Shown one piece after another: positions 31,907 through 33,806 of a stretch of DNA of 64,000 bases. The position numbers and the translations under genes were made by a program. Every line of letters starts with the position of its first letter. Position 1 is the stretch's first letter. The notes beneath the pieces were generated by a model that was given only the letters and a program-made list of their open reading frames with translations, had not been told where the DNA came from and did no database searches. Source of the DNA: Moritella sp. (GTDB lineage Bacteria; Pseudomonadota; Gammaproteobacteria; Enterobacterales; Moritellaceae); assembly GCF_013215705.1 (NCBI RefSeq), contig NZ_JABSQR010000006.1, positions 186,001-250,000 of the forward strand. Reading direction: 5' to 3'.

Positions 31907-32623
31907 CTATTTTTTAAAATTACGCTGAATAGACACCAATGCACCACGTAAAATATTTAATTCAATAGTTTCAGGACGAGCACGGGTGAAGAGTCGACGT
32001 AAACGATTCATCACAACACCTGGATGGGCTTTGTTAATAAAACCAGAATCCCACAATGTCTGTTCAAGATGCGTATGGAACATTTCAAGTTCCTCTTGTT
32101 TGGGATACGGGTTATCTTGTTCAGGATAAGTATTGGTAGCAAGATATGCCATACGTGTTTCGTACGTTAAGATCTGTACTGCCATGGCTAAATTCAATGA
32201 GCTGTATTCAGGATTTGCAGCAACACATACATGATAAGTACATTTTTGTAGCTCATCATTAGTCAAACCAATACGCTCACGACCAAATACCAATGCCACT
32301 GGATAATTCGGCACTTCTTCAATTAATTTTAACCCAGCTTCACGTGAATCCAGCATTGGCCATTGCAGCGTGCGTGAACGCGCACTTGTACCGATCACAA
32401 GGCCACAGTCTGCTACCGCTTCTTCTAAGGTATCGACGATCGTTGCATTCTCTAATACATCGGCAGCACCCGCAGCTAATGCTACTGATTTCTCATCAAT
32501 CTCACATAACGGTGCCACTAGCACTAATTGCGTGAAACCCATGGTTTTCATTGCTCGAGCAGCAGAACCAATATTACCAGGATGAGATGTACCGACTAAT
32601 ACAACTTTTACGTTTGCTAACAT
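31907..32623 (-). CDS. trmJ: tRNA (cytidine/uridine-2'-O)-methyltransferase TrmJ
   Basis: SPOUT-class enzyme that methylates position 32 of tRNAs using AdoMet. [20 protein letters not shown] near 8-27, [16 protein letters not shown] near 109 (SAM-binding knot), and [16 protein letters not shown] near 138. Its position beside the isc operon and divergent from suhB is as in E. coli. Confidence 0.94.
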
Positions 32624-32899: not shown

Positions 32900-33703
32900 A
32901 TGCATCCGATGCTAACAATAGCGATCCGTGCTGCGCGTGACGCAGGCAATGTAATCGTAAAAGCTTATGGCGATCCTAGTAAAACTAAGGTTGAGCAAAA
33001 AGGCACAAATGATTTTGTGACTAACGTAGAAAAAGAAGCTGAAGCAGCTATTATCGCTACAATTAAAAAAGCTTACCCAGAGCATACGATCATCGCAAAA
33101 GACAGCGGTGCTACAACTGGTGCAGATACAGACTACCAGTGGATCATTGACCCACTAAACGGTCATATTAACTTTATCAAAGGTATTCCACACTTCGCTA
33201 TCTCTATCGCTTTACACGTTAAAGGTAAATCTGAAGTTGCAGTTATCTTTGATGCTATCGGTGATGAAATTTTCTCTGCTTGTCGTGGTAAAGGCGCTCA
33301 ATTAAACGGTTTCCGTTTACGTGCTGGTTCTGCTAAAGATTTATCTGGTACTGTTTTAGCGACAGGCTTCCCACACAGCATGAAGCATCAGCAAGAAACT
33401 TACATGAACATCTTCGGCGCATTATTCTCTGAATGTGCTGATATTCGTGCAGCTGGTTGTCCTGCACTTAACCTTGCTTACCTAGCAGCTGGTCGTATCG
33501 ACGGTTTATGGAGCATGGGTCAAAAACCTTGGGAAACTGCAGCAGGTAACTTAATCGCTACTGAATCAGGCGCTATCGTCACTGATTTCGCTGGCGGCCA
33601 TGACTTCTTCAAGTCTGGTAACTCAGTTGCTGCATCACCACGTGTACTTAAAGATATGCTTGCTAAGATCCGTCCTAACCTGACTGAATCTTTAGCTAAA
33701 TAG
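32900..33703 (+). CDS. suhB: SuhB-family protein with degenerate inositol monophosphatase site
   Basis: Full-length (267 residues) and collinear with E. coli SuhB, from MHPMLTIAIRAARDAGN to the C-terminus. E. coli SuhB is both an inositol monophosphatase and part of the NusA/B/E/G rRNA antitermination complex. Here the metal-site residues differ: the EESG loop is KDSG (67-70), DPLDGTTN is DPLNGHIN (84-91), WDxAAG is WETAAG (211-216), and LDLAY is LNLAY (190-194). So three of four usual metal ligands (67, 87, 212) are replaced. Codon choice (GCT, GGT, CGT, ATC) suggests high expression. I infer loss or strong reduction of phosphatase activity with the antitermination role kept. Divergent from trmJ. 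Confidence 0.88.
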   Translation: MHPMLTIAIRAARDAGNVIVKAYGDPSKTKVEQKGTNDFVTNVEKEAEAAIIATIKKAYPEHTIIAKDSGATTGADTDYQWIIDPLNGHINFIKGIPHFAISIALHVKGKSEVAVIFDAIGDEIFSACRGKGAQLNGFRLRAGSAKDLSGTVLATGFPHSMKHQQETYMNIFGALFSECADIRAAGCPALNLAYLAAGRIDGLWSMGQKPWETAAGNLIATESGAIVTDFAGGHDFFKSGNSVAASPRVLKDMLAKIRPNLTESLAK

Positions 33704-33767: not shown

Positions 33768-33806
33768 AAAAAGCCCCGAGACTTAATGCAAGTTCGGGGC
33801 TTTTTT
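33768..33806 (+). terminator. Terminator of suhB
   Basis: AAGCCCCGAGACTT pairs with AAGTTCGGGGCTT, followed by TTTTTT. Confidence 0.85.

Follow-up and report, generated by a model that had tools for sequence, protein, structure and literature searches.

The metal ligands of human inositol monophosphatase, residues 70, 90, 93 and 220 (PMC2080633), correspond by alignment to Glu67, Asp84, Asp87 and Asp212 of E. coli SuhB. In M. tuberculosis SuhB, mutations of the ligands are described as dramatically cutting activity, and Mg2+, at concentrations that activate the enzyme, favours formation of the dimer (PMC2080633). Human Glu213, the equivalent of Glu205 in E. coli, contacts inositol, and Asp, His, Ser or Thr at this position is associated with enzymes that accept fructose-1,6-bisphosphate (PMC2080633). 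E. coli SuhB binds NusA AR2 and rrn leader RNA and is required for stable NusB/E integration, and a double change of Lys251 and Leu254 nearly abolishes its AR2 binding (PMC6614801). The R184A substitution was proposed to stabilise the E. coli SuhB dimer, the wild-type protein later being found dimeric as well (PMC6614801); the 6tqn and 6tqo entries hold two SuhB chain sequences each, which fits the presence of dimeric SuhB in that assembly. The cold sensitivity seen in E. coli is not linked to loss of IMPase activity, and laboratory mutants that are IMPase-dead lose catalysis without a growth defect (PMC4807359); the dispensability of SuhB activity for E. coli growth is already published.

The SuhB of Moritella, a genus of marine bacteria, resembles the E. 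coli protein (structures 2qfl, 6ib7, 6ib8, 6tqn and 6tqo) in a gap-free alignment of 265 residues, in its assignment to the NF008027 family, in the NusA repeats of its genome and in a boxA before 16S, whereas all four ligands, Glu205 and Arg184 are present in E. coli SuhB and Moritella retains only Asp84 of these. It would share with the IMPase-dead mutants the loss of catalysis, and with E. coli R184A (2qfl) the alanine at position 184, but the laboratory mutants were engineered, whereas E67K, D87N, R184A, E205S and D212E are fixed in nature in Moritella. M. tuberculosis SuhB has family, fold and ligands in common with these proteins, but differs from the Moritella protein in being an active enzyme that is mostly a monomer without Mg2+ (PMC2080633), and according to the same source no regulatory function like that in E. 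coli had been described for it. We consider it probable, from sequence comparisons, that Moritella SuhB is a pseudophosphatase, most likely retained because it serves rRNA transcription as a structural Nus factor.

The suhB gene of Moritella and its metal site

The window, a stretch of 64,000 nucleotides from a Moritella sp. genome (GCF_013215705.1, contig NZ_JABSQR010000006.1, positions 186,001 to 250,000 of the forward strand), carries suhB at 32900..33703 on the forward strand as an intact open reading frame of 267 residues with a changed metal site. A preliminary description of this DNA had called the gene intact and its product collinear with E. coli SuhB, and both statements hold: structures 2qfl and 6ib7 are the best matches, aligned without gaps over residues 1–265, and the NCBIfam SuhB equivalog model NF008027 is passed with 384.9 bits against a cut-off of 332 over residues 1–266 of the window protein. 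The AlphaFold2 model of the protein is weak (mean pLDDT 63). Codon bias, which had been described as of the high-expression type, is indeed the strongest among the 54 window ORFs of at least 150 residues (0.62, with a median of 0.31), on a score based on preferred codons of the E. coli type rather than on ribosomal-protein genes. A probable intrinsic terminator, read by eye, lies 3' of suhB at 33772..33806 on the forward strand (stem AGCCCCGA..TCGGGGCT, then a T run); the output of a scan does not contain this element.

The divergent neighbour of suhB, an ORF at 31907..32623 on the reverse strand, is presumably trmJ, as it was named in the preliminary description. That description took the position beside trmJ to be the usual one, which is true of the window and of 7 of the 11 Moritella loci (about 1.5 kb of flank read), but of none of the 16 loci in the sister family f25; overall trmJ is next to suhB in 70 of 137 loci, and given these counts divergent trmJ is no strict mark of SuhB orthologs. 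The Moritella loci L011, L013, L016 and L017 show no trmJ inside the suhB flank of about 1.5 kb, and in Moritella JT01 (L057:1-3001) trmJ lies about 2.4 kb upstream of suhB, so the suhB–trmJ gap varies among species.

Within suhB (forward strand throughout), codon 67 (33098..33100) is AAA and places Lys where E. coli has a Glu ligand, codon 87 (33158..33160) is AAC and places Asn where the E. coli Asp is both a metal ligand and a substrate contact, and codon 212 (33533..33535) is GAA and places Glu where E. coli has an Asp ligand. Codon 84 (33149..33151), GAC, encodes Asp, the sole unchanged side-chain metal ligand. Reading of the codons thus bears out the three ligand replacements that had been listed before; overlooked at that stage were E205S, at codon 205 (33512..33514), where Ser takes the place of the inositol-contacting Glu (human Glu213, equivalence by alignment), R184A, at codon 184 (33449..33451) in the dimer core, which is the change present in the E. 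coli crystal mutant 2qfl, and A188P. D87N is said to be among the E. coli SuhB mutants of Chen and Roberts from 2000, and R184I SuhB reportedly failed to complement in the work of Wang from 2007.

All 11 Moritella genomes, the window's own included, have Lys67, Asp84, Asn87, Ala184, Ser205 and Glu212, and Lys67, Asn87 and Glu212 also occur in all three named Moritella records (L056–L058); Moritella sp. PE36, Moritella sp. JT01 and Moritella dasanensis share 95–99% of the window SuhB protein. A read error at the ligand codons, one of the possibilities that the preliminary description had named as refuting its interpretation, is ruled out by the agreement of 11 species genomes. At the positions where an active inositol monophosphatase (EC 3.1.3.25) has Glu67, Asp84, Asp87 and Asp212, all 11 have Lys, Asp, Asn and Glu, and where inositol specificity goes with Glu or Gln at 205, all 11 have Ser. 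Net charge is +1 in 11/11 Moritella versus −3 to 0 in the 11 SuhB from the sister family whose site is intact.

The remainder of the active site is less uniform. Position 68 is Asp in five of the 11 genomes and Glu in six; codons 89–90 (33164..33169) give His-Ile in place of Thr-Thr in the window, and across the genus the GTTN motif reads GHIN in four genomes, GHTN in three, GTTN in three and GNAN in one, position 89 being His in seven, Thr in three and Asn in one, and position 90 varying too. At Asp44, which we take by homology with human IMPase to be a catalytic helper, Glu is found in eight genomes and Asp in three. The changes of E68 to Asp and of GTTN to GHIN, included in the preliminary description, are therefore correct for the window, but neither is a trait of the genus. 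The variation at positions 44, 68, 89 and 90 indicates that other active-site residues drift while Lys67, Asn87, Ser205 and Glu212 stay.

Two alternative functions of the changed pocket can be weighed against this pattern. The protein may still be a phosphatase with changed chemistry, in which Asp84, Glu212 and a backbone carbonyl would hold one metal and an altered pocket would accept another substrate. Asp84 is invariant in Moritella, Glu at 212 is perhaps tolerated, as D212E occurs together with the other three ligands in eight genomes, and Ser at the Glu205 position is found among fructose-1,6-bisphosphate enzymes (PMC2080633). We regard this as unlikely, since drift at 68, 89 and 90 would hardly be allowed in a newly selected active site and E67K puts a cation at the metal site. 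A new function outside the Nus complex, such as ligand sensing, would account for Lys67, Asn87, Ser205 and Glu212 being fixed in 11/11 genomes, as expected of a new binding site; however, synonymous divergence in the genus only reaches 0.36, which makes fixation a weak sign that these residues are under selection, and with positions 89 and 90 variable and different residues present in other metal-less lineages, such a function appears very unlikely.

Ligand loss across the order

We surveyed 247 genomes of one order, 240 of which have a SuhB match at E <= 1e-40; 239 were read (G222 was left out), and the seven genomes without a match are six of 0.2–0.3 Mb and G165 (80% complete). Among the 239 proteins, 207 have all four ligands, nine are changed at Asp212 alone, and 23, here termed metal-less, have lost Glu67, Asp84 or Asp87; Moritella contributes 11 of the 23. 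Strict sites were defined as the 52 positions at least 97% conserved among the 207 proteins in which every ligand is intact. Moritella alters eight of them (E67K, D87N, P119A, R184A, A188P, D191N, E205S and D212E), and the ligands are overrepresented among the altered sites (3/4 versus 5/48 of the other strict sites; Fisher p 0.009). Seven other strict first-shell residues are not significantly enriched among the Moritella changes (p 0.13), and the same residues are enriched for change in several other metal-less groups. When the 24 families whose ligands are intact were left out one at a time, 19 were found to change no strict site in all their members and the maximum was six. This control demands the change in all members, which is harder on large families; because the intact set is defined by the four ligands, it is circular with respect to them, though not with respect to Glu205 or Arg184. 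Glu205 is present in 207/207 SuhB with all four ligands.

Residues other than Arg at position 184 occur in 16 of the 23 metal-less, two of the nine Asp212-only and one of the 207 intact genomes; the last, L172 (f27), has R184Y with all four ligands and is the sole non-Arg case among the 207. In comparisons of independent pairs, Arg184 loss and ligand loss go in the same direction in a mean of 4.4 of 8 pairs and in the opposite direction in 0.2 (median sign-test p 0.125). As 11 of the 16 non-Arg cases come from one genus and the pair test gives p 0.125, a coupling of Arg184 loss to ligand loss is suggestive only.

The preliminary description presented the loss as belonging to this lineage, and here it has to be revised: on a quick tree of SuhB itself, made from 137 of the 239 proteins (every one of the 32 with a change and a sample of 105 intact ones) with the site columns removed and with L162, L159 and others as long branches of unsure placement, the state of the site changes at least eight times, the three f18 genomes being counted as one. 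In genus g9 of family f9, four of seven genomes are metal-less (L100, L251, L253 and L263), with D84N, D212E and E68K or M. Genus g16 of family f16 has two metal-less genomes (E67A with D212E, and E67Q with D212E), f18 has three (E67K in each, joined by D84N, by D84N and D87N, or by D87S), and f27 (E67K and D212N), f3 (E67K and D212E) and f22 (Thr, Glu, Ala and Ala at the four ligand positions) have one each. The open frames around the metal-less genes span 260–288 codons; in L159 the aligned region contains a stop, and residue 256 is the last of the frame. The f18 genomes L143, L146 and L150, of 1.0–1.2 Mb and, judging by this size, perhaps from insect symbionts, have kept a SuhB with a wrecked metal site though little else is kept. 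In g16, four of eight SuhB have differing ligand changes (L091, Glu212; L131, Ala67 and Glu212; L163, Asn212; L231, Gln67 and Glu212) and a ninth genome, 80% complete, has no SuhB match; decay of SuhB may be under way in this genus.

In the Asp212-only group eight genomes have D212E, and six of these belong to the sister family f25, which has 17 genomes; the ninth, L163, has D212N. One of the eight, L130, has also lost Arg184 and Glu205. Because D212E occurs alone in eight genomes, it may come first in ligand loss, although the order in the Moritella line cannot be read. For Lys67 there is a mutational explanation compatible with a structural Nus role, in which its recurrence reflects the easiest change (GAA to AAA) rather than mimicry of a metal, with Asp to Asn changes arising likewise. 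The Lys67 codon is AAA in 16/16 genomes that have Lys67, and a G to A transition is likewise what the codons show at D84N, at D87N and in most cases of D212N. If transitions are given an assumed weight of 4, four Lys among seven changes gives p 0.14 and six among nine p 0.03, but with equal weights these become 0.01 and 0.0005, and the ligand change present in the largest number of genomes is D212E (27/239), which takes a transversion. We consider the chances of this explanation for Lys67 to be about even.

Constraint on the metal-less proteins

Among the Moritella suhB genes the median dN/dS (Nei–Gojobori) is 0.14 (range 0.03–0.19, 55 pairs, dS up to 0.36), and in the sister genus g35, where Glu67, Asp84 and Asp87 are intact, it is 0.08 (66 pairs). 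The Moritella stem measures 0.35, versus 0.12 for the sister genus. With dN/dS above that of the sister genus and a longer stem, general relaxation may contribute to the Moritella changes. The metal-less f9 clade has dN/dS of 0.02–0.05 in six pairs, five of which stand at dS 1.3–1.6 (near saturation) and give 0.03–0.05, and its intact relatives in f9 have 0.04–0.05 (three pairs); the clade is as constrained as these relatives, and shows the loss at a greater age and in a cleaner form than Moritella does. Outside the site and Arg184, 40 strict residues can be compared, of which 38 are kept in Moritella, 39 in the f9 clade, 38 in f27, 40 in each of the f16 cases, 36, 39 and 35 in the f18 cases, 33 in f3 and 32 in f22; the SuhB of f3 and f22 is clearly looser than that of the other metal-less groups.

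The loss of catalytic residues with the remainder under purifying selection would make Moritella SuhB a pseudoenzyme. The proposal in the preliminary description that enzyme function was lost while a constrained protein was kept is well supported on sequence grounds, as three of four ligands and Glu205 are changed in 11/11 genomes at dN/dS of 0.03–0.19, and we infer that phosphatase activity is absent. A suhB gene drifting towards a pseudogene, the ligand changes being its first hits, would also show the longer stem and raised dN/dS seen in Moritella and the disorder seen in g16 (4/8 SuhB with differing ligand changes, and no match in the ninth, 80% complete genome). We give this almost no credence, given dN/dS of at most 0.19 in 55 pairs, full-length frames in 11/11 genomes, a codon bias stronger than in any other of the 54 window ORFs, and the dN/dS of 0.03–0.05 at which five of the six f9 metal-less pairs stand at dS 1.3–1.6.

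Nus context and the proposed role of SuhB

Matches to the NusA C-terminal repeats were found in 21 of 22 genomes searched, including two Moritella; the exception is G130 (60% complete, with an intact SuhB site), where no match was found. The search covered 13 of the 23 metal-less genomes, and 13/13 have two repeat matches each; in G115 one of the matches is truncated at the edge of a contig, and in G031 one falls just below the cut-off. The AR2-contact residues Lys251 and Leu254 are kept in 11/11 Moritella, which says little because they are present in only 148 and 150 of the 207 intact SuhB.

The exact boxA 12-mer has 9, 15, 19 and 9 copies in four Moritella genomes versus 0, 0, 1 and 0 for a reversed-pattern control, and in both the window's genome and G008 one of the copies stops 184 bases short of 16S; a third boxA stretch (L326) contains no rRNA and stops at a contig edge. 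On contig C1 of G008 (of which L324 is one stretch) several exact copies lie 5.3–6 kb apart, one of them checked with Rfam, suggesting tandem rrn operons. No exact copy occurs in the metal-less G050, G069 and G031, where boxA must differ or be absent; the metal-less G018 has one copy (control one), the metal-less G062 five and the intact sister G074 one. The window's genome thus has both the NusA C-terminal repeats and a boxA in the rrn leader. A retained RNA-polymerase/NusA role, as put forward in the preliminary description, is in circumstantial agreement with the NusA C-terminal repeats in two Moritella and boxA before 16S in two; the role itself may have changed too, as Arg184, at the dimer core, is replaced.

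With respect to a second IMPase gene, a point raised earlier, the window's genome has three further PF00459 genes, none a SuhB ortholog, each of which retains the ligands when aligned; two pass TIGR01331 and are CysQ, sharing PF00459 with SuhB but differing from it in their four retained ligands. The third (L008:1501-2250), of about 315 residues, falls below every NCBIfam cut-off. Loss of inositol synthesis was considered as a trigger and rejected: PF01658 has no match in 11/11 Moritella and has matches in 6 of 14 controls, E. coli not being among the six, and such a loss explains nothing specific. A limited search of open-licence PubMed Central found no report of recurrent natural loss of the SuhB site, and no paper there joins SuhB with pseudoenzyme, Moritella or D87N, or inositol monophosphatase with pseudoenzyme.

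We infer that a Nus role is the reason for SuhB retention. In the mechanism proposed, the ancestor would have been a normal Mg2+-dependent inositol monophosphatase that doubled as a Nus factor; once selection on catalysis lapsed, Glu67, Asp87, Asp212, the inositol contact Glu205 and the dimer-core Arg184 would have given way to other residues, with purifying selection still holding the fold and the remainder of SuhB. SuhB would still bind NusA (AR2), rrn leader RNA and RNA polymerase, enabling NusB and NusE to join, with rRNA antitermination and folding as the outcome; none of these steps is known to require phosphate chemistry. Without Mg2+ the carboxylate cluster would be repulsive, and Lys, Asn and Glu at the ligand sites may ease the repulsion; together with Ala184, the ligand changes could yield a constitutive dimer independent of Mg2+. 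Such a metal-free constitutive dimer is, on the sequences, a coherent proposal. Against the loss of phosphatase activity stands the fact that Asp84 and the backbone ligand remain and that Glu at 212 might still bind metal.

Extended to the order, SuhB might be primarily a structural Nus factor with the phosphatase as a disposable relic, at least eight lineages having gone metal-free with cationic or neutral side chains (often Lys67) in place of Mg2+ and some of them having freed the dimer from Mg2+ control by Arg184 loss; we offer this generalisation tentatively, and with more doubt than belief. If true, rRNA antitermination would be uncoupled from Mg2+ and substrate in such lineages. Annotation as 'inositol monophosphatase' is probably mistaken for 23 of the 239 SuhB, or for 12 of 228 if Moritella, which was sampled whole, is set aside. 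In Moritella and the relatives with repeated loss, the enzyme activity looks dispensable and the second job is probably kept; natural and repeated, long-lived in one clade, and with the rest of the protein constant, this loss would provide ready-made separation-of-function proteins.
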